A DNA stretch of 64,000 nucleotides from NCBI GenBank assembly GCA_033439265.1, contig JAVTVX010000004.1:24499201-24563200 (forward strand). The letters run 5' to 3'. Shown one piece after another: positions 5,600 through 54,620 of the stretch; the first letter of the stretch is position 1, and each line of letters starts with the position of its first letter. Position numbers and translations under genes: made by a program. Origin of the DNA: Dillenia suffruticosa (Eukaryota > Streptophyta > Magnoliopsida > Dilleniales > Dilleniaceae). The notes beneath the pieces were generated by a model. That model was not told the origin of the DNA and did no database searches. It saw only the letters and a list, made by a program, of their open reading frames with translations.

Positions 5600-6370
5600 T
5601 CTTTTGCAGACTCACTCTCTCTTGACTCTACACCTCAAATGCATCATCATACGGGTTCTAATACTCGACTGGGTAGACGCGACCCACGCTCTGGACTCTA
5701 CACTTCAAAAGGGTTCTACACCCCTCTCTCTCTTGACTCTATGCTTCAAACGCATCATCATACAGGTCCTAGCACCTGATTGGGTATATGCGATCCACTC
5801 TCTTAGATCTACACCTTAAAAGGGTTCCGCATCTTCTCTCTTGGCTCTACACCTCAAACATGTCATCATATGGATTCTAGGCACCCAAATGGGTAGATTT
5901 AACCCACTCTCTCAACTCTATACTTTAAAAGGGTTCCGCATGCTCTCTCTCGGCTCTACGCTTCAAATGCGTCATCATATGAGTTCTAGCACCCGACTGA
6001 GTATACACGGCACACTCTCTTGACTTTACGCCTCAAAAGGGTTCCTCACTCTCTCCCTATCCGCTCTATGCCTCAAATGTATCATCATACGGATCCTAGC
6101 ACCTGACTAGGTAAACGTGACCTGCTTTCTCAACTTTACGCCTCAAACAGGTTCCGCACCCTCTCTCTCGGCTTTATGTCTCAAACGGGTCTGCTGCCGC
6201 TCTCTTGGCTCCACGCTATATAAGGGTTCCGTACCTACTCTTTTGACTTTATGCCTCTCACATACCTCATGGAGATCTCGGCACCCATATTTTCTCAACT
6301 TTATACCTTATGCAGGTCCTAGCAGGAAACGACACTCACTCTCTCGATTATACGCCTCGCATGGATCCTA
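5600..6370 (+). repeat. ~110-bp tandem array in the retroelement 3' region
   Basis: The word (C/G)TCATCATA recurs near 5642, 5753, 5862, 5972 and 6081, a spacing of about 108-111 bp. Each unit is composite: a CTCTCTTGACTCTAC-like block plus CTCAAA and CATCATCATA, a GGTTCTAGCACC and GACTGGGTA part, then a second CTCTCTCAACTCTAC-like block plus CTTAAAAGGGTTCCG. About five full units are followed by more degenerate ones towards 6370. The array lies downstream of the integrase piece and upstream of the LTR, as in the hypervariable 3' region of Tat elements. Confidence 0.8.
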
Positions 6371-9387: not shown

Positions 9388-9459
9388 GCGGCTGCAGTTT
9401 AGTTGAAAGAATTTCACGTTGTGGCCGTGGAGACCTGGGCTCAAATCCCAGCAGCCACA
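9388..9459 (+). tRNA. tRNA-His(GTG)-like sequence, probably decayed
   Basis: The sequence starts GCGGCTGCAGTTTAGTTGAA, has an anticodon loop TTGTGGC (anticodon GTG) closed by TCACG/CGTGG, a perfect T stem CTGGG/CCCAG, and an acceptor strand CAGCCAC. It closely follows the known plant nuclear tRNA-His pattern. Departures: an acceptor mismatch (C2 against A71), position 8 is C instead of T, and the T loop reads CTCAAAT where the standard is TTCGAAT, so the internal B box is weakened. A short T run (about 9476) follows. It lies in the 3' flank of the pectin methylesterase gene. Inference: a tRNA-His pseudogene or weakly expressed copy. Confidence 0.75.
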
Positions 9460-9651: not shown

Positions 9652-12600
9652 TCAGAGAGTCAAAGAGTAGGGGAAACCAGTGGAACCGAGCCAACCACTG
9701 CCACCAATGAAATTACCAGCAGTGAAAGGCTGAGCCTCGCTAGCACTGGTAATCACCTTGTAACCCTTCCAAGTCACCCTCTTGGAAGTTGATGCACCTG
9801 GACCAGTGTTAAGATACTCTCTGTAGAACAAGGTGTCTAGGGCAAAGTTGCCATCCCACTCATGCCAACCTACCGGGTCAATAACATCACTTATTGTAGA
9901 CTGCATGATCACAGTCCTGGAGTACTCCTTCCAGGGTCTCCCCAAGTATGTGGGGAAGCTGCCCTTGACTGCCTGCAGGTCAGAGGTGGCCGCAATCCTG
10001 CACTTCTGGATCACAATGCCTGTGTTCTGGTTTGGGTCGGTTCTACCCTGTGCTGTCACCATGTTCTTCTGACCAGGACCGGGCTTGCGGGCATGGATGT
10101 CGCTGTCCTGGAACATTGCAGCTGCATTTCCAAAGATGAAATCAACGGTGCCCGCAATGAGGCAGTTGCTGAAGAACTGTCGATTGGAGTGGACATATAA
10201 GGAGTCCTGGTAAGCCAGAATGTCACATTGGTAGAATGCTGAAAGATCAGCACCGACACGCAGAGCTACAGCTTGGTGATTGGCATGCCCTGCCGTGTTT
10301 TGGAATGTAATGTCCCTCGCCAAAAACCCATCTCCTACCACAGCTGCACCCACAACACAATCGTCAATCATACTTGGTCTACTGTAATTGCATGTTCACT
10401 TTCATATATTTAATTTACCCATCTAAAAATTTGAATTAATTTCATTCCTTGTTTTTCAAACAAGCTTCCGAGTAGAACAAGAATTACCAAATACTTTGAC
10501 TAATAATCATATCTGCCGTGCTCCCATTTATTACAACTCCACTCTACTACAAAAACACATTGTCCCTAATATCATACCGGCAGAACCAACTGTACATAAG
10601 ATTTGATTGCCCGCTTTAGTGTTTCATATTTTTAAGTTATAATAATTCAATGACCTTACTCCTAAAATAAAATCACGTTACTCTTAAAATAAAATTAGAC
10701 ATTTAATAATATCTAGACCAACGTAAAAAATCCAAGTACATAACGAAAACTTACAAAGGTTGTTCACTTGTCCAATCAAAATACAATTTGTCAAAATAGA
10801 AATAAAATTATTATTAAGATGCAATTGTAACAATTCAAATCTTGCTAAAGTGTAAAAAATTTGTCGGACTCAGAGAGTGAATTCTAGAGTAAACAGATTT
10901 ACAAACTATGCAATTTCTTTTTTTTTTTTTGGATCCTATTGGAATGGCGACATCACCCCTAGAGGTATGGTATCATCTCAACCATAATGGGCAGGACGGG
11001 AAGCTCAGAGGGTCCCTCTCCGGAGCATGCCTCCTTTTCTACTTTCTCTTTCATTTTGATTGTACTTAAAAATTATTACATAAAAATTAGAGAAGCAATT
11101 AAATAATCATAATTCTAGATAAATTTTATATTAATTAACTAAATTACTCTTCAAAATGTCAAAATTTTATGCTATAATTAAGTAGAAATAATAAATAATA
11201 AAAAATAAAAATAAAGTTATAAAAATAGTAATCATTTTTTTTAATTTTTCAAAATGATATGTAAAGAAAAAAATTTAACCCTAAAGCTATACTTTAAATA
11301 AAATAGAAATGAAATAATTATCAGTATATTCTTCGGAGTGGAGGTTGACGGTGTCTGCATGGGCCCTGCTCCCTTGACATTATGGTGGGATCCTACCAAG
11401 CTCCAACAAATTCCAAGGAAAGGAAAGTTCCCTCCCAAAATAATAAGTAAATAAATAAATGAAGAAGAAGGTACGACGTACGGCTAGCGCAGGAGGACGG
11501 GATGCGACCAAAAACCAATAAATCCCACCCCTGCAATGAAATATCAAATCAAGGGCAGATATTGCGGAACACGTCTAGTGGCGTTTCCTACCCTGAAAAG
11601 TCGATTTCATATTTTAACTTCTCTTGACGTATTCAACAACGATCTACGCCGACAATCTGATCTTTAATTTTAACAATTTAGGATCGACGTACAAAGATTT
11701 AAAATAAAAAATATAAATATAAATATAAATATAAATATAAATTAAAAATTGATAAAAATAAATAAATAAATACAATAATTTAATTTTTTTATATCACTTA
11801 TTTTTATCTAAAGTTATTTTTTCGTTTAAACTCTTAACTATCATATTTTTACGAATAATTTATATCCAAATTTTCAACAATTTATCTCTTCGTTTTACTA
11901 GATCTCTTATATTCAAGTTTTCGACTATTCTAACCGATATATTTTCAGATTTTCTTTGCATATACCCAAACCATCTCAAACGACACTATCACATTTTCTC
12001 CACAATTGAACAAATTTCTAATCTTTTACGAATCTATTCATTTCTAATTTTATTTTTTCTAATTTTAACACACATCCCCCTAAATATTCTCATTTCTATT
12101 ACTGTCATTTTTTATTCTTATTGTTATTTAATAACTCAACACTCAGTATCATACAATAACACATATCTTACTACGTTTTTACAAAACTTTCTCTTCAAAT
12201 ACAGTGATATCATACGTTCATAAAGAACTCCAGATATCTTTTTCCATTTCATCCAACCAACTTGAATTCTATATTTCACATTTTCATCTATATTGTCGTT
12301 ATTTTGAATAATAGAACCAAAATATCTAAATCGTTTACTTTTTTTATACATATTATCCATCTAACCTAATCGTTTGTTTATCGTTCAGATAATTATTGCT
12401 AAACATACACATCATGTGATTAGAATTATTTTTAATGTATAAAAATAATTATTTTTTAAAAACATAATGTATAAAAACATAATTATTTTTAAAAACATAA
12501 TTATATAAAATATAAAATAATATAAAAACAGAAAATTCTAAATTCCAATTAGACTATGTTTCTTGTTTATTTATTTAGAAATTTCATGTGATTAGAAAAT

Positions 12601-14610
12601 AATAGTCAATATAAAAGAAAAGTATAAGGTAAAAAAAATAACATCTTTGTAATTATATTAGATTATTTTTTAAAAAATAGTAGCATCATCTTATATTTTA
12701 CCTAAATATTATTTATTTAAAGAGTTTAAATTAACAAAAAAATTATTATTATTATTTTATCTTTAACTCTCTCGGCTAAGGAAAATAGGTAAAAAGAAAG
12801 GTGTTTGCCTCATGAAGAACAACTTTTCTTCTGTCAATCCAGAAAGGAAATTTCGCTATCTTTGATTGCACCGCATGGCAAACTCTAGAAAAACGAGCTG
12901 GTGAAGCTTTTTGTAAAGCGAATCCAACCAAATCTATCCTTGCGTGGCATCCGCAGAAAAAGCAGCATGAAATTATGAATGTCCTTTTGAAATTATATTA
13001 TTACGATAATACCCCCCCCCCGGGCAAAAAAAAAACAAGTACAGCCACCCCTGACTCTGTACCTATCACATGTCTACGTAAAATTATAAATATGCTACTA
13101 TAGTTAAAAAAAAAAACAGAGAAAAAGAATCAAGTCGAACGAACTTTATGTTATATTAATATCAATTAATACTATAAGTATTTTGTACATTGTTATATAA
13201 GGTTTTATATTAATTTATATTTTTCTGTCATAATTCTCAAATATTACAATAAAATGAGACTCAAATTATATTAGCAGAAGAAAGAAGAGGGTAGAGGGTA
13301 GAGGGCCTTTTCACGCCTTACGCCGTGACGTTTATAAAAGAGATTAATGATATCATATAACTTACCCAAAAAAACACCGTAAGAAAAATTTTTAAATAAA
13401 TTTTTAAAAGCTTATCTTATTAATAAAATTATATTATGGAGAAAAATAATGGAAAATGAATATAGAGAGAGAGAGAGAACCAAGTTAATTTAAGTGAAGT
13501 GAGGTGAAACTGACCGACGGTGGCAGAGTGGAAGGTAGTGCTGCCGCCCTTAACACTCAAGCTACCGGTAATGATGGTGCTGGTTCTGCCGTCTCCCACA
13601 AACATTATGTTGGTCTTCTTCTTCGACACTTCCACCTTCTCCTTGTACACTCCCGCCTTTATCTTGATCACGTACCTCTTGCTGCTCTTCTCCGGTGCCG
13701 CCGCCACCGCCTCCGTCACCGTCTTATGGTCTCCGCTCCCGTCCGCCGCCACCACCACGTTCGGCGTCACCGTCGACGACTGCAGAAGCTTCCTGTCCCC
13801 GGCAGAAAGCCAGCTGGGCCAAGTATCATCACTCTCCCCCTCTTCGTTTAGCAGCAGCTTGCGCCCTGCGTTATGGGCATTTTTTGACGAGAGGCGCTGC
13901 TGTTGTTGCTGTTGGGCAACAATGTCTGTGTCCGTCATATTCTTGATCATGGCCAGCGCATTGCTGCACATGCGGTACACGTGCATTTCCCCGTTTACTA
14001 GAGCCTGTCGCACCTTCTTGTCGGCCTCGTCGTGGGAGAAACCGTCTAGGCAAGTCTCCTGGTTGGTCATGGCGGCGCTCATCAGGGTCTTGAGGTCATC
14101 CGCGTGTTGTTTCAACGACTTCTTGTTTGGGTAGCGGTCGAGGTCGTCCTTGGCCTTGCGGAGCTCGTCCAGGGTCTCGTCTATGGTCTCCAGACAGTCG
14201 TGGAGAGCCGTCTTCTCCCTCTTGGATAGGTGGGTGTTGACCTTGATAATCTTCTCCACGGCGAAGTAGTTGTGTTCCACGGCTGTGGTGGTTAGGTTGA
14301 GAGACTTCTCGATCACGTCTTTCTGAGTCAAGATCGGCTTGTCGCCGGCTGCTTCTCCGCTTTCGGATATGGCAGAGTAGCAGAGTTCTGGGTACAATGT
14401 GCTGCTGCACGATGATTTTACAATGATGTGTGCTGCTTCGGAGAGACCGCCAGTGTTGTTGCTTTTGCTGCTCGAGCTGTTTTTGTTGCGGGAGGTTACT
14501 CCTACGGCAATGCCGATAATGGAAGCTACGAGGAGTAATGAGGATAAGGCGACTAAGAAGAGCTTTCTTCTTCTCTTGTTACCCGCCATGAATTCCTTCA
14601 TCTCCTTCAT
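9652..14610 (-). CDS. PME: Pectin methylesterase with inhibitor-like pro-region (type I)
   Basis: The gene has two exons: 14610 down to 13515 and 10343 down to 9652, joined in frame (G/CT, giving ATVAVVGDGF). The intron is 3171 bp with a GTCAGT donor and a GCAG acceptor. The product is about 595 aa (606 aa if the upstream ATG at 14643 is used). Order: a basic N-terminus with a membrane/signal anchor ([18 protein letters not shown]); a PMEI-like pro-region of about 150 residues with paired cysteines; a Gln-rich stretch; two dibasic processing sites (RKLLLNEE and DRKLLQSS); then the catalytic domain. Family residues seen: [22 protein letters not shown] (Asp), [10 protein letters not shown] (Asp), [10 protein letters not shown] (Arg). 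Known: such enzymes de-esterify cell-wall homogalacturonan after Golgi processing at RKLL-like sites. The sequence most resembles the AtPME3 group. It appears intact. The intron holds a LINE relic. Confidence 0.93.
11630..12420 (-). mobile_element. RTE-like LINE fragment in the pectin methylesterase intron
   Basis: The minus strand encodes [20 protein letters not shown], followed by [20 protein letters not shown] and a YVLLYDTEC end (12360-12136). This matches the C-terminal reverse-transcriptase wording of plant RTE-type LINEs (YLGSIIQ...GWLKWR...GVLCD...YGTECW). Further broken homology (a WRKCDS..WDGLGICK-like stretch) continues to about 11930, and a degenerate form of the RTE 3' end (GATCCTAAATTGTT...GTTGTTG) lies near 11640-11700. 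An (ATAAAT)n run splits it at 11711-11744. It is 5'-truncated and non-functional. Confidence 0.7.
11711..11744. repeat. (ATAAAT)n microsatellite
   Basis: Roughly five copies of ATAAAT in a row, inside the LINE relic in the pectin methylesterase intron. Confidence 0.85.
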
Positions 14611-17046
14611 GTTTTGTTTTCTTCTGCAATACGAGTGAAGCAAATGAAGAGGACGGTGGGGATTGGAGTATTGGAGAGGTGTTTCTTATTCTTATCTTGC
14701 GCTCCCCGCTCCCCTAATAGGCAATCTCCTTTTCTTCTGGACTACGATGTGACAGTTGCTTTCTTCTTTTCCTTTAATTTAGTAAGTTTTTTAGTCGCTT
14801 ATGCTAACACAACTAATTATTGAGCCTACGTGGTCTGTTCTTCTTCTCCTGTCAAATCTTTCGCTCCAACTTGCATGATCGATTTTTTTGACAAAAAATG
14901 CTGGTGGGGTACGAATTCTACCACGTACCCTCTTCACACTGTCATCGAAGTTTTTATCACTTTAAAAATATGTAATTTGAATTATAATTTTTTTTATGAT
15001 AATAATATCAAGAATTAATAATTGAAGACTTAATCATAATATGTGACTGCAATTAAAAAGTCGAATTTGTTAGAAACACATGAGTAATAGGATTTTTGCC
15101 GCTAGAATACCATTTTAACACAATTCTCATTTTTTACGTTTCCAGGTCTAAATAGCATGATTTCTATTTATTTAGGTGAAACATTTTCCTTTTGAAACTT
15201 GTGTTCCGTGTTGGATGCTCTGACAAGTGACATTGCTATCCGCATGGCTCATATGGTACACAAGTGGGCGGGCTGAACTTGAAAAAACACCTTTACTTCT
15301 ATATGGAGTCTACAACTACATGATCTTATGGCTATGGTGAAACAGTAAAATGATGCATCCCTACCGTTTTCTTATTATCCGACATATACCTCTGCACACT
15401 GGTGGTGATTGGAACTATAAAAAGGAAATGTCTTCACAAAAATTCCTGCCCCTTACTTTGGTCTTATGTCGGGGGCAGCTGGACTACACTACAAAAGTTT
15501 GGTAAATGGGATCCTCTTTAATACATATGGAAAGCATGTTACGCGAAAATCATCGCACATCAAATGCGCTATTAATTCAGTTTTTCACTCACAATCGATC
15601 CTTTGGGCCACATCTTTCATCTGCTGCAACCTCTTTGTGAGTTGTGACACAACATATCACATGCCTCAACAACCAATTTTGGAGTTTTTCTCTTGTAACC
15701 ATGTGGCCTGGTCTAAGAAAGTTGAGGTTAAGGCAGTGATACGCGACAATTTTAATTTCTTTATGTAAAGAATTAAATTTTTTTTAATTTTCAAAATCTC
15801 ATTTTTTTTAAATATATTATTTTAGTAACATAGGATAAAACAAACTTTCAACACCTGCTCACTTGCTGAAATGTCAAATCTTTTTCGCCATTTTCTCATT
15901 CGTCGAGGTGTGGATTGCCAATGAGGGTGTTTAGAAAAGCTTAACTTATCTTAATTTTATTGAACTTATCTCTATCTCGTTTCTTTTTATTTATAATTAT
16001 TGCAATTCTTTTTAAAAGAATTATAGAATTTTACCAAAAAATTAACATTCTTTTAAAAAAATAAAATTATCATTATATCACTATTTTTTTTTTAAAAAAA
16101 AAACCCAATTTAGTTTCACTTAGATTTAGTTTAAATTTTTTCAAAATATCTCTAATTGCATAAATAATTATACATGACAAGAATATTTTACTCATAATTA
16201 TGTTTTGAGATTTTTGTATTGATTGGATGTACTATACTATGCAATTTGTTCAATATCCATGCTTAGGCTCAGCCTCAAGTTTATCTTAGATTTAATTTAT
16301 TTTTGCTTTATTTTATTTTACTTTACCATTTTTTGACTAAAGCGAAAAAATTTTTAAACATGAAATTTTTTGGAATAGAAATTAAATTTAACTATGAAAA
16401 GAATTAATGTTACTCTTAAATCAATAAGCTTTTATATTGAAATTCTTGCTTGAATTTAGTTGAGTATGATTTTAATTTTTTTTTTTCAAACACATGCTTG
16501 TTTTAATCGCAACCCATATCTAATATATCTAATACTAGGGAAATGGTTTGGAGATAGAGATCAAAGAGCTAGAGAAAACTGAACTCAGGGTAAGGAAAGA
16601 AGATGGAATTACTCTTTTCTTAACTAATGAATTATAATTCAATTGATATCATTTTATTTCCTTTTAAAGTATCAAATTCAAATCTTCCCTATGTATCAAG
16701 AAAAATTACATCAAGTGTGATAAAGCACAAGAAGAGCATCCTCAGATTTCATCCTTTATTAACATGACGTCTAACCAATTGAGTTAATAGGTCAGTAATT
16801 ATTACAAAAAAAAAAAAAAGATTTGATCCTTTATTCTTAAAGGTGATGATACGGCTGGATGCTCTGTGAGTACGTGACTTAGCTGTTCCCTCCATTCTCC
16901 ATTTTTGGCATTGGATTCGGTTTCGCAGATGGATTCCATTGAAAGAAGATGCGAAGCGTGACAAAGTGACTAATTCTCATTCCCCTTACTTCAACTTGGA
17001 CCTACATGCATGTGCGTACATACAATATATACATACTACATAAAAT

Positions 17047-19050: not shown

Positions 19051-22000
19051 AATTTGGTATCAGAGCTCTCAGATTCTTGGCCACAGTGAAACAATGGCGG
19101 AAGGAACTAGACAAAAAACTCAAGATGCAAAAACAGAAGAGCTTAAGTTGTACATGGACAAAAAGATAGAGGAAGGTGGACCAGAGAATAGACCAGAAAT
19201 TGGATGTTTTCTTGGCCAAGTTAGAAGCACGTTTCGGTGATAACTTGAAGAAACTACAAGGAGAAAAAGAGGCAGCGACCACTGCAGATCAAAATCTGAA
19301 TTCTCCACTTCTTCCTACTCCCAACGAAGCGAGAATAAGAATAGATGGAGAACATTTCTTCAACAAGAAAGATACTCAGCTTCGAAACATGATACTTCAT
19401 CAACCGAGAGTTGAGCTACCTGTCTTTTCTGGAGATAATCTATACATGTGGATCAGAAAATGCAATAAGTTCTTTGCAATTTATCAGGTATCTCATCATC
19501 AAAAAACTGAGTTAATAGAAATGTATATCAAAGGAAAAGCTGAAATTTGGTATTAAGGACTCAAAAAGATAAAGAAAGAAATAGAATGGGATGAATTTTC
19601 CAGTCTGTTGTGTCAAAGATTTGAAACTAAAGGAATGCAAGATGAAGTAGAGGAATTTAATAAGCTCTAACAACATGGGTCCTTAACTGAATACCAAGAG
19701 AAGTTTGAGAAATTGTGGGGATTAATGCTGCATAAAAATTTCTGGTTAACTGAGTCTTATTTCATTTCAAGCTTTATAAGTGGAGTCAAAGAAGACATTA
19801 AACCGGTACTGAGAATGATGAAGCCCACCACTCTCATTCAAGCTTTCGAAATAGCTACCCTACAAGAACAGTCCTTGGAGTTATCAAGGAAAGGAAGGAT
19901 CAGTATGAGCAAGCAGGGGAGGAATTGGGAAGGTAATATTGGAGTCAAAACTCCTTCAGGATTTAACAGTCCTACAGTTCCAACAGAAGGAATGAATAAG
20001 AATGCACAAGGGAGTAATGTTTTGGGGAGTTACTGGCCCAAAATAACTTCACAAGAATTACACCATAGAAGGAGTAATAATCTTTGTTTTAAGTGTGGGG
20101 AAAGATTTACTCCAGGACATAGATGCAGATTTAAACATTTGAACTTCATCTTAGCTGCTGAAGATGAAGGGAGAAATGAACTTACTGAAGACGAAAAGAA
20201 AGAAGAGGACAAGAAACAAGCTGACATTGAGGAGGGTATGCAAATCTCTCTGTGTGCATTATCCAGCTCTATGAGGAGACAAATGATAGCATTGCAAGGA
20301 GCATTATATGGACTGGAGATCACTATTCTGATAGACACAGGAAGCTCTAATAGTTTTCTACACCAAAGAACAGCAACCAAATTGAAGTTGTCAGTGGAAT
20401 CAGCTGAAAAGTTGCATGCAGAGATTGTAGATGGAAGCAGGATCACCAGTTCTACCAAAGTGCAACATGTGAAATGGTCCATTCAGAAGTACACCTTCTC
20501 CTTTGATTTAAGAGTAATAATTCTAGGAAGGTGGGATATTATATTAGGTGTGGATTGGATGTAAAATTATAGTCCCATCACATTTGATTTTAAAAGGCTA
20601 CAAGTCAGTTTCTGGTGTGAAGGAAATGAGGTTGTTTTAGAAGGGACAGTAGAGCAACCTTAATCAAATTAGTAAGAGGAAAGGCTACTAAGAGATTCAG
20701 ACAGCAACAGCTACATAATTGTGTTGCTCTAGAAGTAACCAATGAACCTAAGGAAGCAGAAATTGAACTTCCAGAAGAAATCTCGGTAGTACTTTCTGAG
20801 TTTAAGGAAGTGTTTGAAATTCCTAATAACCTTCCACCAAAAAGAACACAAGACCACTCTATTCTCTTAAAACCTGAAGCTCAACCTTTCAAACTTAAGC
20901 CATATAGATACCCTCACTCTCAAAAGACAGAAATAGAGAAGCAAGTACAAGAGATGTTAGATCATGGCACTATTAGACATAGCAATAGCCTATTCGCACC
21001 TCCTGTTTTGCTGGTAAAAAAAAAATGGAACATGGTATTTTTGTATGGATTATAGGTAACTCAATTCACTGATCACCAAGGATAAATACCCCATTCCCAA
21101 TATAGATAAATAGTTGGATGAATTACATGACTCTAAAGTTTTCTCTAAGATAGATCTTAGAGTTGGCTACCATTAGATAAGAGTCAAGCCTTGTGATATG
21201 GAGAAGACAGTCTTCCAAACTCACCATGGTCATTTTGAGTTCTTGGTTATGCCTTTTGGATTGACAAATGCCCCAACCACATTCCAATCTCTAATGAATT
21301 GCATTTTCAGCCACTTCTGAGGAAGTCAGTTCTAGTCTTCTTCGATGATATATTGATCTATAGTCTAGATATTTTTACTCATGCTCAACACCTCAAGGCT
21401 GTGCTTTTGACACTTCAACACCATGAACTCTTTGCTAAGCTATCCAAATGTATTTTTGCATAACCACAAGTAGAATATTTAGGGCATGTGATGACTGCAG
21501 AAGAAGTGAAGATGGATTCCCAGATCTTCATGGCCTACTCCCAAATCTGTCAAATCCTTGAGAGGGTTCTTGGGACTTACTGGATATTACAGGAGATTTG
21601 TGAAGGGCTATGGTATAATAACTAGGCTTTTGAATGATCTTTTGAAGAAAGATAATTTTCTGTGGTCAGAACAAGCTGAGATAGCTTTTAATCAACTGAA
21701 GACAGCCATGAGCACAGCACCTGTTATACGGCTGCCTGATTTTTCCAAGCCTTTTATTGTGGAAACTGATACTTGCTCTTTAGGATGGGGAGCAGTATTG
21801 ACGCAAGAAGGGCAGCCTATAGCATACTTGAGAAAGACATTGGGCCCTAAGAGTAGGGGATTGTCCATTTATGAGAAAGAATTATTAGCTGTGGTGATGG
21901 CTGTAACTAAGTGGAGACACTACTTGATTGGTCACCATTTCATAATTAGAACTGACCATCAAAGTCTCAAGTATTTGATGGAACAGAAGCTTACCACTTC

Positions 22001-23595
22001 ATTGCAGTACAAATGGCTAGCCAAACTACTGGGAATGGATTATGAAATACAATATAAAAAGGGGACTGAGAATAAGGTAGCAGATACTTTATCAACAAGA
22101 GGACTCCAAGAGGAAGAAGAAATAGAATCCACTCTCTCTGCTATAACCACAGTATAGCCAGTTTGGATATTAGAAGTACAGCAAAGTTACGAGCTAGATG
22201 AAGACTGTCAAAGTATTATAGCACAATTGACTCTGCAACCTGACTGTAAACCTGAATTTCAATATAAAGATGGTATCTTGAAATACAAAAGGAAGATCAT
22301 GGTAGGCAAAGGAAATCAGCTCAGACAAATAATAGTACAACAAATGCATAGTTCAGCCACAGGAGGACATTCAGGGCAGTTGGAAACTTTACAGAGAGTC
22401 AAGTCTATGTTCTATTGGCCAGCAATGAAGGAAACAGTTAATGAATTAGTTTGAGAATGTGATATTTGTCAGAGAAATAAGCATAAAAACTTACCATATC
22501 CAGGCTTGCTTCAACCTCTTCCTGTTCCTACTCAAGCATGGTCACAAGTCAGCATGGACTTCATGGAGGGGTTACCTGAATCTCATGGTTTCAATACCAT
22601 TCTTGTGGTAATTGACAAGCTTACAAAATTTGGCCACTTCATGGCTTTGCAGCATCCATATTCTGCAAGCAAAGTAGCACAATTATTCCTTGACAACATT
22701 TTTAAGCTACATGGCCTTCCTGATTCTATTATATCTGATACGGATAGGATTTTCACCAGCCTATTTTGGAAAGAAATGTTCAGACTTATGGGAATTCAAC
22801 TCAAAATGAGTAGTGCTTACCATCCTCAAACTGATGGGCAAAGTGAGAGGTTGAATCAATGTGTCGAATGCTACCTCAGATGCATGTCTTCTGACGGGCC
22901 TGCAAGATGGTTTCAATGGTTAAGCTTGACAGAGTGGTGGTACAATACAAACTACCACAGCAGCCTTCACATGACACCATTTGAGGCTTTATATGGTTAC
23001 CAACCGAGGCAGCTACCAATGGGGCCTTATGCAGAGTCTGTTACACCTGCTACGGTAGACTTCATTAAGAACAAACAAGCAATGCTTCAGATTCTGCGAG
23101 ATCACCTGCACAAAGCTCAGAACATGATGAAATTATATGCTGATCAGCATAGAACAGAAAGAGAGTTTAAGGTTGGGGATATGGTCTACTTAAAATTGTA
23201 ACCCTATAGGCAAAACTCAGTGGAGTTACGGAAACAACTTAAGTTGTCGTCGAAATTCTATGGCCCATTCCAAGTGATTGCAAGGGTGGGAAGCGTAGCT
23301 TATAAACTGCAATTACCTCCTGAATAAAAAATACACTCAATGTTTCATGTGTCACTATTAAAAAAAACGATTGGTTCTACACAATCTGCAATGCCTCAGC
23401 TTCCATTGTTGGGATCAGATAACCAGGTACTGGTTGAACCAGAGGCAGTTCTGAAGAGAAAAGTCATCTAGAGAAATAACAAGTCTGTTACTCAAGTATC
23501 GATCAAGTGGATTAATCTGAGTTTGGAAGAATCAAAACTCAATTTCCAGGTTTCAATCCTTGAGGACAAGGATTACTTTCAAAGGAGGGCATACT

Positions 23596-47291: not shown

Positions 47292-48317
47292 CTAGCTGAG
47301 GTTTGCTTGGGCCACACAGCGCAGTGGATACCCAAAAAAAAAAAAAAATCCTGTACATAGGAGGAGTGGACAGGGCATGGACGCCCACACTTGTTCAACA
47401 TCCGCAGCAGCAAGAGCAGCAGCAACAGCAGCAGCAGCAGAACAGGAAATAGAAGGAACAACCACTCTCTTGGAGCTGAGAAGCCCCCTAAGGGACCTCA
47501 GTCTGGTGCTGATTGTTGGAGATTTTGCTTCTAATTCGTCGCCACCAGTAGTACTAGGAGGAGGCGATGCTGCGGCCGCGGTGGACAAAACGCTTCCGTC
47601 CATCTCCATCTGCCTAGTAGTAGGTATGATGGTGAGGGCGTCAGTGGTCAAATTCCCAAATGGGGTGCTGCTGCCGCTGCTGCTCAAGGCAGCTGGCGGA
47701 GATGGCGATGGAGGATGACGGCCTTCTCCTCCTGGTCCTGTGGCTGTGGTTACCAGCGTCTCGTTGCTCCAGAACAACACATTGGTCGGAAAATTTGGGG
47801 AGTTGGGGTCAGGAAGGATTTGTATTACTACCGTGTCCGAGCAAGGGGTTACAATGGCGTTGCGGCAGAGGGTGCAGGTGGAGTGTGAATGAAACCACGT
47901 CAATGAAGTCCAAGTGGAAGCAGTGGTTGCACTTGGGCAGCATCCGGACCTTCTCCCCCTCCACCATCTCCGACAAACACACCGCGCATTCCTCCCTTTG
48001 CTTCGAGTCCAACGTCTCCACCGCAAGGGACTTGAGGACGGAGGGATCTAGTCCTCTGTGCTGCGGCTGGGCCCACCCCCACCTTCTGCGGCAAAGACCA
48101 AACGTTGGCGTCGTGAGCGCCGCCTCTCCCTGCCGGCCCCGCACGAGGCAGCGCGCCCCCGAAGTGGGTACCAAAACAATTTGGCGTAGATATGGAGGAA
48201 CACCACGAATGCGACCACCAGAAATAGTACGATTATGGCTCCCGCCATGATCTTTCCGGTGAGTTCCACAGCAGTCCAGTCGTGCAGCGCGTCCTTCGAC
48301 GACGGTGAGTCTCCCAT
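47292..48317 (-). pseudogene. ATL3-like RING-H2 ubiquitin ligase gene with frame changes
   Basis: The minus strand starts MGDSPSSKDALHDW at 48317. It has one membrane segment (IMAGAIIVLFLVVAFVVFLH) and a basic stretch, then changes frame near the G-rich run at about 48080. It continues RGLDPSVLKSLAVETL and a RING-H2 EECAVCLSEMVEGEKVRMLP, KCNHCFHLDFID. A 2-base loss then shifts frame (GACGTGGTTTC where GACGTGTGGTTTC is expected), followed by WFHSHSTCTLCRNAIV and a C-terminus with NFPTNVLFW, RLRSLRGLLSSKR and DVEQ, all as in the ATL3 group. The sixth zinc ligand (Cys in H..C) is Phe. Known: intact ATL proteins are single-exon, membrane-anchored E3 ligases. Two frame changes plus a lost ligand argue for a pseudogene, though the frame changes alone could be sequence errors. 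Confidence 0.8.
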
Positions 48318-49057
48318 CTCCTTCCTATCCTTTTTGTCTTTACTGCTTCTCTGCCTGTACCGACCGTACTGTACTGTACTCCAAATCCCCGCAAAGCCCC
48401 CCACCCGCCCTGGGGATGCAAATTTAGAAAGCCAAATTAATACTCTTAAAATGCCTTCAAAAAGAGCAGCAAACTCTCGCCAAAATGAAATCTTCCGTAC
48501 GTCAATCTGAGAGAGAGGATAGGAAATTTAATTTGTACGACTACAGAAGAGGATAAAAGGAATAGAAAGGAAGAGGAAGGCGTAAAAAAAACTTAAAAGG
48601 AAGGAAGAGAGAAGTAACGGGACGGAACAAAGGAAGGAAGAGGGGGAGACGGAAGGACGGGAGCAAGTAATTGAGAGAATGATGATGACTTTTTTTCTGA
48701 GACTCGTAAAATGTTGTTGGCACTGTCAGCTGCAGCCCATAATATTCAGAAGAAGAAGAAGAAGAAGAAGCATTCAAACCAAGTTCCTTCTTTTTTCGAT
48801 TCTTTCCTGCCTTGGGGTGGCGATTATCTGCTCTAGGTAGTCAAACTACCTCCCCCACCCAATATCACTTTCACGGCATTTTTAACGTTTTTTACAAATC
48901 AATGTTCTCTCGTTGATGCAATATCCCGCTCCATGCCCATGTAGTTGAATTGGGTGAGAGCGGAGCAACAACAAAATGCCCCCACGCCCCATGTAGATGT
49001 GGGTGGCGTCAACATTGACGATACAGAGAGTGGTTCCAAAAAAAAAAAAATTCAATT
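48318..49057. other. Spacer between the ATL3-like gene and the foldback element
   Basis: A purine-rich stretch (48540-48680, many GGAAG words) and an (AAG)n run (about 48752-48771) lie upstream of the ATL3-like start. This may be its former promoter. Nothing else is supported. Confidence 0.4.
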
Positions 49058-49939
49058 GCTACCGGTAGCAGAGCTTTGTACCGAAATAAACTTAAAAAAA
49101 AAATTTAAATGATATGTAGAGGAAACAAATTTCATAAATAACCCACATTTATCGCATATTAAACCCGCGACAGGGTCACGTGGTGACGCCGAAATGGCCG
49201 AAAGCGTGTCGCGTCTTAAAGACGCGACATTCCCCCTCCCCAGCTGTGGCCCCTCCCTCCACCACCCTCGACTCTCTCTTCCTCCCTCCCCCGCCCGTGG
49301 CTCTCTCTCTCCCTCTCCCCCGGCTCTGCTTCTCTTTCCCTCCCTCCCTCCCTCCCTCCCCTCGGCCCGCGGCTCTCTCTCTCCCCCCCCCCGCTCGCGG
49401 CTTTGCTCCTCCCTCCCCTCCCTTCCTCCCCCGTGGCTCTCTCTCTCTCCCTCCCTCCCCCCGTGGCTCTCTCTCTCTCCCCCGCCCGCGGCTGTCTCTC
49501 TCTCTCTCCCTCCGCGGCACTCCGCTAAGAGAAAGAGACAGTCGCGGGGAGAGGGAGGGAGAGAGAGAGAGCCGAGGGGAGGGAGGGAGAGAGGAGAGGG
49601 GAGGGATAGAGAGAGCCATGGGCAGGGGAGGGAGGGAGAGAGAAGCAGAGCCTGGGGGAGAGGAAGAGAGAGAGCCGCGGGCGGCGGGGGGAGAGAGAGA
49701 GCGTGGCGGTGGAGGGAAGGGCCGTGGCTGGGGAGGGGGAATGTCACATCTTCAAGACGTGACATGCCTTCAGTCATTCCGGTGCAGTCACGTGGTTATG
49801 TCGTGGATTCAATCCGTGACATATCTTGTTGCGGGTTTAACACACGATAAATATGGGTTATTTCCTGAATTTGTTTTCTTTACAAGTCATTTAAATTTTT
49901 TTTTTATAAATTTATTTTGGTACAAAGCTCACCGGTAGC
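49058..49939. mobile_element. Foldback (long inverted repeat) element, about 880 bp
   Basis: The left end GCTACCGGTAGCAGAGCTTT...GTACCGAAATAAA and the right end (read in reverse) GCTACCGGTGAGCTTTGTACC...AAAATAAA match, and complementarity continues inwards almost to the centre (about 49515). Shared inner words include ATAACCCA.ATTTATCG, TTAAACCCGC and CATTCCCCCTCCCCAGC. The inner 250-300 bp of the left arm is nearly all pyrimidine (CTCTCTCTCCCTCCC), the right arm nearly all purine. Each arm also holds a small 21-base hairpin (GTCGCGTCTT-A-AAGACGCGAC at 49208-49228; GTCACATCTT-C-AAGACGTGAC at 49743-49763). No transposase is present. I could not define a target duplication. Inference: a non-autonomous DNA transposon of foldback/MULE-like type. 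Open frames in it are low-complexity artefacts. Confidence 0.85.
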
Positions 49940-52737
49940 CCTCATACTTAATGATCCATTAAGACTTTGTCTTGGGATTGTGTGTGTCACAAACATAATT
50001 TGGCGAAGGGTTGAAACAATTACTAATCCATTCCCCTCCAAACTTTAGATCATTACAAAATACCCCCCGAAACTTTATATTTGAGAATAAACTATCCTAA
50101 ACTTTGATAAATTACTTCTAAAAATTTATCGGTTTTGTCATTACTTCTAAACCGATTGATATATTTGAGAATAACAAAACAACCATTGATATATTTGAGA
50201 ATAAACGATCCTCCGAGTTAAAGACCGATTTGTCAAAAAAATTGCAAGCAAACAAAGTTGTACTACTCCATTTTACCTTCCAAAGGATTTGTCATTATTT
50301 CTAAACCGATTTGTGTATCATACTTTGTTTTAGCATAGATTTCAAAAATATGTAAATTTATTCATAATATTTCATAAGTAAAAGTCTATATTTTGAAATT
50401 AAATATCAACCCTTCACTTTATGAAAATAGCACTTCTGATCTATAATTTTTAAAATAGAAAGGAGAGAACTAAGGGGAGAGAGACAGAACCAGGGATTGT
50501 TAAAAAAAAAAATAAAAATTAAATAAATTATTTTTTGTTGCATGCTACATACATGACTGTAATGGCCAATCTTAATGGACCCTAAAAGGAGAGATTAACA
50601 TTGTAACTTTTCATAATTGAGGAGAGATCTTTGCATGAAAAAAGGTGCAAATCTTAATGAACTCTAAGAAAAGACCAAGTGATTGTTTAGTTAAAGGGTA
50701 TAAAAATCAAGAATCGTAATAATATTTATATATAAATAGTTTGGATTAATAGAATAAAAATAAAAATTTAAAAATAAAACTCTCAAAATATGAGTTTTAT
50801 GAAATTAGGGCATCGGAGATGACGGGGGAGTTTGAGCAGAAGAAGAGTTACTCTAGATTTTCGGGAGATTCAAGAATGGGGAGTTTGTGGAGAAAGTCAA
50901 GTCCAGTTGGAATGGTCAGCATTTTTTTTTTTAAAGGAACGGAATATCATGGCTTTTGAATATTTTAGCGTTTTATAGAGATGAATTATTGTGGTAAGAA
51001 TTGGACGACTGTTATGGTTGAAGAACTTCACTTTCTTTTTTTTTTTTTTTTTTGGTGAGGAGGGCAAAAGGGCCACTACAAGCCTAAGCCCATACCTCTG
51101 GAAAAGCAAGACATTAGACTATTCTTGGACCTAAGAAATTTGACATCTAGAGAATTCTCTTGAAGCAGAGGGTTCATAAACAGAGGAGGAGAAGTAAATT
51201 CATGCACACCCGGGCTGCTACCATGGCCAAGGGAAGCTAAGTGATCTGCACATCTATTACCTTCAACTCATTCAGAAGGAGCCTGCAGTCTTCATTGATC
51301 TGAACTTCTCTTTCTAGATATATTGATACCTTCGCTTAATGTAGTATTTTATTATTACCAAGTAAAAAAATGTACGTTTGAGTAATTTTGTCCATGACAA
51401 TGTTTTTATTTATTTAATAAAAATATTTTAAACCTAAAAATATTTTTATTAAGGGTAAAATTAACATTTATACGAAAATATACAAATCAAATATTAACAA
51501 TGGTAATCATATCTGTTCTACAATTTAAACTAAACAGTTGATATTAGAATCAATTTTTTCATTCCACTTCTAAGATTTATTATTTTGATTCCGACTCGAC
51601 TCACTTAAAATTTTAAATTTTCTTAGTGTACAGAATTTTGCATAAAAAGAGGAGACTATTTGTATTAAACTCTAAGTTCAAGGGGGTTAGTTTTACCCTT
51701 TTCTCTAAAGAATAATTATAAGTGAATTAAATCTTTTGTAATACTTAAGTTTTTATCTTAAAATTGGGGTAATTTCCAGGCCCATGGTTTGTTTTTTTTT
51801 TTTTTTTTTTTTGGCTTGGAAAGAGGAAAAAAAGACTTAACGGAATTTGTGCAATATAAGTATTATATGAATTCAATACTTACATATCTCACATTACATT
51901 TCTTGATTTGTATGTATAAAACTTTTCATGTCTCGCGTGTTATCCCAGGCCACCTGGGAAAAGTTAGGATTTAAATAAATTATATACCTAATAAAAAGGA
52001 AGAAAAGATGGAAGTAGTAATTTTCTATTTTATTTTTCTTTGTTATTACATATCTAGTTTAAAAATATTTTCAGTCTTTAGGTTAATCTATAAAATAAAG
52101 ACAAATTTTGGGTAATGCTCGGCAGGGCAAGTACGTCTATTTTAAAAACTTAAAAGGGTGAAAATAAATATCAATAAACTATTGAAACAAAGAGAAAAAC
52201 AGAACTTTAGTACCCGTGTCAAATTTTTAGTCACGAGAGAAAGAAATAGAGTGTAAAAGGAGGGAGGGAAAAGAAAAAACGAAATCGATCAAGTCAGCAT
52301 ATAAGTGGATCAAACACCCTCGTTCCAAAAGAAGTCGAATGACCTACAAAGGTGATCCGCCCCTCGCCAGCAGTTCATGCATCTAAGTGCTACCAGATTC
52401 CTAATTAATTAAATGATGACATTTACCACACCCTTTTCTATCCATTCATAAGAAGTCATATTAGGACTTGTTGATGCCACTTCGGCTGATCATCCTTCTG
52501 TCTCGAATGGAGAACTGATGATGAAGAGACCATTATATGAACCACGACGTGCACGCCTGCAAAAAACTAGCCAGACGAGGCTCTAGAGGAGAATGTTCTT
52601 ATAGTCAAGTCAAAAAGAGCGATTTTAGAATAAAAGATCGAGAGAGTCTAACCCTGTGTAATCTCTGTGCTAAATGTATAAAAAGAGATTTGTATCTAGT
52701 ATATTGTTTTTGTTTGATATATATATATATATATATA
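49940..52737. other. AT-rich spacer
   Basis: No gene is supported. Short words such as TATTTGAGAATAAAC and CTTCTAAACCGATT recur between 50080 and 50330. T tracts lie at 51032-51053 and 51790-51812. A LINE scrap is listed separately. Confidence 0.5.
51050..51310 (-). mobile_element. LINE-derived fragment (RNase H-like end)
   Basis: On the minus strand, broken frames read VQINEDCRLLLNEL and NRCADHLASLGHGSSPGVHE followed by FTSPPLFMNPLLQ. This is the style of the C-terminal RNase H region of plant LINEs (N.CAD.LA..G...P.G.H.F..PP). Very short, no ends seen. Confidence 0.5.
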
Positions 52738-54620
52738 TTGAGAAATAGTTATTGAGCTAAATTCAGCAAGTAGTTAGTTTGTTAGTTTGTTAAGTAGTTA
52801 GTTTAATAGTTTGTTTGTTAGTTCAGCAGTTAACCATTCTATTTTTGGAAGCTGAGCAGTTGAGGTAGATAATTAGTGTTAGTTCTTACCTTGTATAAAT
52901 AGATCCCTCCTATTACAAAATGAAGGTATGACTCTATAGCAGTATTGTTGATGCTATAGATCAAAACAATATGCTCAGCTCATATTCTAACATGGTATCA
53001 GAGCCATTTGTATGAGATCTGTGTAAAAATGCAACGAATAGATCAAAATCCTACAGGAAGAAGAGAAAGGCCAGAAACTATGGAAGATTCAAACTCATAA
53101 ATTGATGTCAATCATCCACTATTCCTTCATCCTTCAGATACGCCTGGTATTCATCTTGTATCTTACCAATTAACAGGGACAGAGAACTATATTGTGTGGA
53201 GTAGAGCAATGCGAATCGCTTTATTAGCAAAGAACAAGCTAGGCTTTGTGGATGGTACTTGTATCAGGCTTTAATCCAAGCTGGTTATTGCCAAAGTAGG
53301 CATGATTATTCACTTTTTACAAAGAAGAATGGTCAAAGAATTGTGATATTATTGGTATATGTAGATGACTTGCTGATAACAAGAAATGACAAATTGATGA
53401 TTGATGAATTGAAAGAAGTATTACAAAGAAATTTCAGAATTAAAGACCTAAGTGACTTGAAATACTTTCTTGGTATCGAGGTTGTCAGATCTGATAAGGG
53501 AATAGTTCTCAATCAAAGGAAGTATGCTCTGGAACTCATTTCAGAAACACGACTTGCAGGGTCAAAACCAATCCAGTCTCCATTGGAGCAGAACCTTAAA
53601 CTGACCACAGTAGAATATGATGAAAGTAAGAAATATAAACATGCTAGTGAAGAAGACCTCTTGATTAAAGATCTCTCAAGATATCAGAGATTTGTTGGAA
53701 GATTGCTATATTTAACTACAACAAGACCAGATATTACATTTGTTGTCCAGCATTTGAGTCAGTTTATGCACAAACCAAAGCAGTCTCACTTAAATACAGC
53801 ACTAAGAATAGTTCGATATGTGAAGAATAGTCCAGGACAAGGAATTTTCTTACCATCCACGAGCAAAATGCAGATTACAGCATACTCTGACTCAGATTGG
53901 GTATCCTATCCAATGTCAAGGAGATCAGTGACAGGTTTTTGTATCAAAATTGGTGAATCCCTTATTTCATGGAAATCAAAAAAACAAAGTACAGTATCAA
54001 GATTTTCAGTTGAAGCAGAGTACAGAAGCATGGCTGCTACGGTCTCAGAAATACTATGGTTGACTGGGTTATTACATGAGCTTGGATATGAAAAATTAAG
54101 ACCTGCAAACTTATATTGTGACAACAAAGCTGCTATACATATTGCTTCAAATCCAATATTTCATGAAAGGACAAAACATATAGAAATTGATTATCATCTA
54201 GTTCGAGAAAAGGTTCAGAAAGGTCTTATTATCACAAAGCATATTTCTTCATAAGAACAAGTGGCAGATATAATGACAAAAGGTCTGGCAGCACATCAAC
54301 ACAGATATCTTCTTTCCAAGTTGGGAGTTCTAGATATATATCACTCTCCAACTTGAGGAGGAGTGTTGAGAAATAGTTATTGAGCTAAATTCAGCAAGTA
54401 GTTAGTTTGTTAGTTTGTTAAGTAGTTAGTTTAATAGTTTGTTTGTTAGTTCAGCAGTTAGCCATTCTGTTTTTGAAAACTGAGCAGTTGAGGTAGATAG
54501 TTAGTGTTAGTTCCTACCTTGTATAAATAGATCCCTCCTGTTACAAAATGAAGGTATGACTCTATAGCAGTATTGTTGATGCTGTAGATCAAAACAATAT
54601 GCTCAACTCATATTCTAACA
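52738..54620 (+). mobile_element. Short Ty1/copia element with both LTRs, incomplete interior
   Basis: Two 255-bp LTRs (52738-52992 and 54366-54620) start TTGAGAAATAGTTATTGAGC and end CATATTCTAACA. They differ at about 9 positions (about 96-97% alike), so the insertion is fairly recent. A primer site TGGTATCAGAGCC follows the first LTR. Interior parts: a gag start (LTGTENYIVWSRAMRIALLA) and a pol end with reverse transcriptase (LLVYVDDLLIT, LKYFLGIEV) and RNase H (YSDSDWVSY, LYCDNKAAIHIA). RT before RNase H at the 3' end marks Ty1/copia; the gag wording suggests Ale/Retrofit. Much of the usual interior is absent, so it is non-autonomous. It sits in an (AT)n tract, with ATATA on both sides as a possible target duplication. 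Confidence 0.88.

Follow-up and report, generated by a model that had tools for sequence, protein, structure and literature searches.

A probable foldback-type Mutator-like element with subterminal palindromic units in Dillenia suffruticosa

The window, a stretch of 64,000 nucleotides of contig JAVTVX010000004.1 in a 596-Mb, 37-contig host assembly, is plant DNA containing pectinesterase, RING-finger and retrotransposon genes. A pectinesterase gene with an inhibitor domain is found on the minus strand at 9652-14685 as two ORFs, split by an intron or an insertion. Gypsy-like polyprotein pieces lie at 19170-23201, with an integrase match just below the Pfam cut-off. At 52738-54620 there is a Copia-type fragment, in which an RVT_2 ORF (53205-54254) is flanked by two 255-bp direct repeats, 96% identical, that are probably LTRs. 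At 5610-6185 a unit of 108-110 bp is repeated in tandem about five times, and Rfam finds a tRNA at 9388-9459 that is absent from the bacterial-mode ARAGORN output. In the RING-finger ORF (47809-48324, minus strand), the ATG at 48317 was chosen by eye as a candidate start codon. The element analyzed here lies upstream of this putative gene, to which it may bring methylation; the distance between the candidate ATG and the left duplication of the element is 744 bp.

No other inverted repeat of the window comes near the one at 49058-49939, which has a bit score of 457 (E 7.6e-129) in the window self-comparison; the next-best one outside the element scores 59. The RNA of 49071-49930 folds at -618 kcal/mol, against a shuffle mean of -322 (n=20, z -35.7), and 0 of the 20 shuffles equalled it. 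Both results confirm the near-complete palindrome that a first-pass annotation had described as an element spanning 49058-49939. This extent holds for the palindrome, but the outer arms GCTACCGGT...ACCGGTAGC are not the ends of the element. Family copies and their duplications place the termini at GAGCTTTGTACC (49071) and GGTACAAAGCTC (49930), which gives a foldback MULE-type element of 860 bp (49071-49930, no strand assigned); 49058-49070 and 49931-49939 lie outside it, in duplicated target. The direct repeat ACCGGTAGC stands directly outside GAGCTTTGTACC...GGTACAAAGCTC. By flank-repeat comparison, the left target-site duplication ACCGGTAGCA (49061-49070, plus strand) matches the right one, ACCGGTAGCC (49931-49940, plus strand), at 9 of 10 bases, a score attained by 9 of 20,000 pairs of places drawn at random. 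The outermost bases seemed inverted because the target GCTACCGGTAGC is itself palindromic.

As in foldback elements, the inverted repeats are very long, nearly meet in the middle and contain internal tandem repeats. The left outer terminal inverted repeat begins GAGCTTTGTACCGAAATAAAC and covers 49071-49149 on the plus strand, as defined by an alignment of 50 arms and by 41 genome matches to 49062-49160; its right counterpart (49850-49930, minus strand) was defined by the same alignment. Next to these, the unit scan located a decayed first palindromic unit in the left arm (TATCGCATATTAAACCCGCGACA, 49150-49172, plus strand) and another in the right arm (49827-49849, minus strand). Further inward, a mini-palindrome with 11/11 pairs is found at 49207-49229 (plus strand) and one with 10/11 pairs at 49742-49764 (minus strand). 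The right arm also carries a second unit at 49799-49821 (minus strand, 9/11 pairs), which has no counterpart in the left arm; units occupy this place in relatives. The mini-hairpins noted in the first pass, including the extra one on the right, are thus present, though as 23-mers (11+1+11). In single-strand DNA folding, 49207-49229 and 49799-49821 beat 200 of 200 shuffles, and 49742-49764 was equalled by 9 of 200.

The inner arms were characterized by composition and by a tandem-repeat scan. The left one (49236-49520, plus strand) is pyrimidine-rich, with 86% CT and degenerate tandem units, and the right one (49523-49740, plus strand) is purine-rich, with 85% AG; they are not nearly pure CT and GA, as had been supposed. 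Both are degenerate tandem repeats with periods of 18-29 bp, and also of 64 and 70. H-DNA needs mirror symmetry. The arms are inverted, not mirror, and a scan for exact mirrors detected no long homopurine mirror repeat, the best arm being 11 nt (49338-49360); the earlier suggestion of triplex (H-) DNA is therefore doubtful. Four-run guanine motifs occur once on the plus strand and twice on the minus strand. ORFs of 191-266 aa span the element and are judged to be by-products of the low-complexity arms.

The same ends recur elsewhere in the host genome. With the 99-bp left end (49062-49160) as query and 40 of 74 candidates scored, at least 41 matches were found, a lower bound that includes two to the element itself. 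The other 39 matches were fetched as 35 loci, of which 24, chosen by hand, were taken as two-ended; together with the window copy they form a set of 25 copies. The 11 excluded loci either have a single end or lack a complete second one. Two-ended copies measure about 0.7-1.1 kb and lie in varied targets, and the left-end search, the two-ended loci and the 50-arm alignment all identify the terminal inverted repeats as common to the family. The nearest arm was the copy's own opposite arm in only 8 of 50 cases, and mean identity was 0.83 to the own arm and 0.78 to others, so that the arms of the family look old and scarcely homogenised.

The mini-hairpins can also be seen as a feature of the family: each is a copy of a palindromic unit of 23 bp, and the units often recur with a 28-bp period. 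Scanning the 25 copies by the left half (TGTCGCG, at most 2 transitions) gave 111 units, 87 with at least 7/11 pairs and 9 perfect. A scan by palindromy only gave 125 units, compared with a mean of 32.4 and a maximum of 45 in 20 shuffled rounds. Among the 111 units, a spacing of 28 bp is commonest (24 times), followed by 57 bp (10) and 60 bp (4). Twenty of them start 100-119 from the end, which matches the place of the right-arm unit 49799-49821; it is therefore likelier that the left arm of the window copy lost the corresponding unit than that the right arm gained it. Assignment by nearest type shows two dominant inner classes, the TCTT/AAGA palindromes (44 units) and the GGTT/AACC palindromes (32), the remainder being 16 hybrids and 19 ties.

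Units of this kind are abundant in the host genome. The TCTT palindrome was found at 1,091 places with at most 2 mismatches, and its reversed control at 0. The hybrid pattern gave 1,079 places at the same threshold; the two sets overlap because the patterns differ at only two bases and two mismatches were allowed for each. Exact hybrid units, with two inner mispairs, occupy at least 100 genome places. In a hand count of the exact matches listed from C1 to C26:6714728, 68 were hybrid and 50 were TCTT-palindrome places. Hybrids are thus common genome-wide, though they are a minority in the 25 copies of the family.

Pairing within the 111 units exceeds the shuffled level mainly at the inner positions: 65 versus 42.6 at pair 8, 63 versus 36.1 at pair 9 and, slightly, 98 versus 91.3 at pair 10. 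Jointly, the inner four pairs reach 2.85/4 versus 2.30, more than in any of 2,000 swaps. Since the units fall into two classes by nearest type, this inner covariation marks the classes. Outer pairs 2 and 4-7 pair at the shuffled level and show no covariation, in a test that is limited by the preselection of left halves. A maintained hairpin structure, which was also considered, is unsupported, as these outer pairs are no better than shuffled and imperfectly pairing hybrids are common. The right halves of the 87 better-paired units, which were picked partly by pairing, deviate from CGCGACA by 92 changes, 61 of them transitions affecting the four CpG bases. This is the pattern expected from decay of methylated DNA, and the window copy likewise looks old and methylation-decayed.

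These data bear on the view that the locus is an inverted repeat kept for hairpin RNA, whose small RNAs would target either the RING-type gene nearby or other copies. The strong fold (z -35.7) and the location of the element, upstream of the putative RING gene and 744 bp from its ATG, speak for it. However, mobile-element anatomy suffices without a host role, the arms are only 85% identical, with longest unbroken matches of 23, 20 and 19 bp (one global alignment, G-U uncounted), and the CpG-rich outer pairs of the family units decay without compensation. This explanation is therefore improbable.

Mobility is indicated by the flanks of the copies. Direct repeats abutting the ends reach a score of at least 7 in 18 of the 25 copies and of at least 8 in 13, whereas left flanks paired with right flanks taken from other copies reach these scores in 2/600 and 0/600 cases; offsets of up to 4 bases were permitted in copies and controls alike. 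The duplications have the length known from MULEs (about 8-11 bp). Perfect 10-mers flank six copies (L012, L017, L022, L041, L043 and, with ends moved by two bases, L027), and perfect 9-bp duplications flank the window copy, L025 and L046. The best match is 8 bp in L021, L031 and L039. Some accepted duplications are of low complexity, such as poly-T in L026 and a CT-rich one in L030, and in 7 of the 25 copies (L014, L015, L016, L019, L037, L042, L044) no convincing duplication was found (score <7). The two checks proposed in the first pass, for further copies with the same ends and for a target duplication, both gave positive results, and its idea of a mobile foldback element with subterminal mini-hairpins was right: dispersed copies share the ends, and duplications flank them.

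When the 11 excluded loci were refetched at 9.9 kb, L053 and L057 displayed, at a distance of about 7.2 kb, another end that faces inward, and thus represent two 7.2-kb elements, 81% identical over 6.6 kb. The element at L057:2386-9580 has the same ends and a 9/9 duplication, TGTCTACTC, which is offset from the left end by one base. In L053 no duplication was found within 12 bases of the ends, and the right end deviates from the family. The element at L050 measures 1.9 kb and has a 10/11 duplication. One of the two large elements contains a MULE transposase domain (L053:5206-5847; Pfam PF10551, 39.5 bits against a cut-off of 27.6, E 7.9e-10). Among the six ORFs scanned with Pfam, the only other match was a zinc knuckle in L057, below the cut-off. 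The transposase-like frame of L057, read by eye, is broken, and no intact transposase of the lineage was found. In the outer 1,200 bp of the arms, units with at least 7/11 pairs number 7 and 1 in L057 and 3 and 2 in L053. At least 150 MULE-domain matches are present in the host genome (150 of 737 candidates scored), counted irrespective of ends.

A hAT-type or other terminal-inverted-repeat element, with an 8-bp or other duplication, has even less probability than the hairpin-RNA locus. If its boundary is moved outward by two bases, the left end reads as CAGAG, in the manner of hAT ends, and plant genomes commonly contain hAT MITEs. The best duplications, however, are mostly of 9-10 bp rather than the 8 bp of hAT MITEs, with six perfect at 10 bp, three perfect at 9 bp and three best at 8, and the large relative L053 bears a MULE transposase domain. 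Long palindromes are often misassembled, but an origin as a local inverted duplication or as an artefact of the assembly or library is scarcely credible here, as the arms have diverged by 15% with private indels and as 24 further loci, whose flanks differ, carry the family ends in both orientations. The alignment of the two halves shows 85% identity (328 identical, 45 transitions, 13 transversions and 88 gap columns) and many indels private to one arm, which makes a fold-back assembly error, the artefact considered in the first pass, unlikely; the many dispersed copies also speak against it.

The shared ends, the duplications at 18 of 25 copies and the two 7.2-kb relatives with the same ends and subterminal units, one of which has a MULE domain, suggest, with a probability of about nine in ten, that the element is a non-autonomous, foldback-type Mutator-like element (MULE). 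It would mostly be an ordinary jumping-gene copy with no enzyme of its own, although its arm design is unusual. The first-pass view that it could be assigned to no named family is correct only in part, for the element fits a Mutator-like foldback kind in which subterminal tandem repeats have been described (Muta1, PMC5225508; Tm1, PMC3169594).

Ends that are modular or repeated, together with duplications of 8-10 bp, are already known from foldback MULEs, as the available descriptions of MuTAnT, Muta1 and Tm1 indicate. MuTAnT/AutoMuTAnT of Medicago truncatula (PMC4486113) is likewise a plant MULE with modular foldback non-autonomous copies, long inverted repeats, a larger coding relative and, in the few copies that lie outside perfect TA repeats, 9-nt duplications. 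Unlike the present family, with copies of about 0.7-1.1 kb and varied targets, it is described as targeting TA microsatellites, 90% of it being 200-300 bp long; the arms here also differ in their 23-bp palindromic units and frequent CT/AG stretches. Muta1, classed by its authors as a type 2 Foldback element, and other MULEs of Aedes (PMC5225508) share long inverted repeats, subterminal tandem repeats and 8-9-bp duplications, and their derivatives vary in repeat number. Their subterminal units are, however, tandem and of 9-15 bp, with no alternating inverted half-sites mentioned in the portions available, they belong to an animal host, and activity was shown for them. Tm1 of root-knot nematodes (PMC3169594) is a MULE/foldback element with composite ends, repeats of about 14 bp, 9-bp duplications and a purine-rich motif that closes the repeat on its inner side. 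It differs in its asymmetric outer 7-bp motifs and in the length of the purine motif, 12 bp against an arm of 200-300 bp here, and the accessible account reports no palindromic units. FARE of Arabidopsis (Windsor and Waddell 2000) is a plant foldback element classed with MULEs according to PMC4486113, and is also referred to in PMC3169594. From MuTAnT, Muta1 and Tm1 as described, the present family differs in its inverted half-sites of alternating orientation and in CT/AG arms 200-300 bp long. The end pattern had 0 matches in viral contigs, where a looser A-rich pattern matched 3 contigs, and the unit pattern had 0 matches in bacterial genomes. Among the papers listed by full-text literature searches with the end sequence and unit strings, all look unrelated by title. 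No description of these ends was seen among the papers listed on plant foldback MULEs, a weak negative because most subscription papers lie outside the coverage of the search.

If the element is a foldback MULE, a MULE transposase made elsewhere would bind both arms and move it in trans, inserting it where the target strands are cut with a stagger of 9-10 bp. Inverted TGTCGCG half-sites stand in a row, for the most part 70-250 bp inward of each end, and may together serve as a multiple docking array for the transposase or a host protein. Such candidate docking sites have an analogue in Galileo of Drosophila (PMC3688188), which belongs to the P superfamily and not to the MULEs; its long, internally repetitive ends are reported to contain multiple binding sites for the THAP domain of the transposase, of which the outermost lies some 70 bp inward. 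Against docking stand the outer pairs 2 and 4-7, no better than shuffled, and the many hybrid units in the genome. A broader proposal, for which the odds are rather low, is that the half-sites form a general docking code of the host's MULE-type elements, on which a transposase or host chromatin protein assembles as a multimer. Such a code would take in more than 1,000 genome places, in alternating orientation and often with a 28-bp period (two 14-bp halves), and unit number would set the strength of transposition or silencing. The family allows repeated subterminal units to be read as inverted half-sites in both small copies and 7.2-kb relatives, and makes it possible to ask in a plant MULE whether, as for Galileo, long repetitive ends provide many transposase sites.

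The CT/AG arms are a frequent internal module of the short copies and not a requirement. At least one inner half, split at the midpoint, reaches 70% CT (left) or AG (right) in 20 of 25 copies, and both reach 75% in only 8. L031, L037 and L043 (about 1.05-1.1 kb) have no CT/AG arms, and none were found in the sampled stretches of the 7.2-kb elements L053 and L057. The CT/AG arms may be the filler module of one subfamily, grown through tandem duplication.

At L019:1293-1312 a second family end stands back to back with the right end of the copy, without a duplication. A second foldback structure with 80% arm identity lies beside the copy in L025 (1564-2501) and runs to the end of the locus. Exact hybrid units are also found in oppositely oriented pairs about 0.5-0.9 kb apart, as at C24:5263070-5263822 and C18:20284888-20285715, hinting at further foldback subfamilies.
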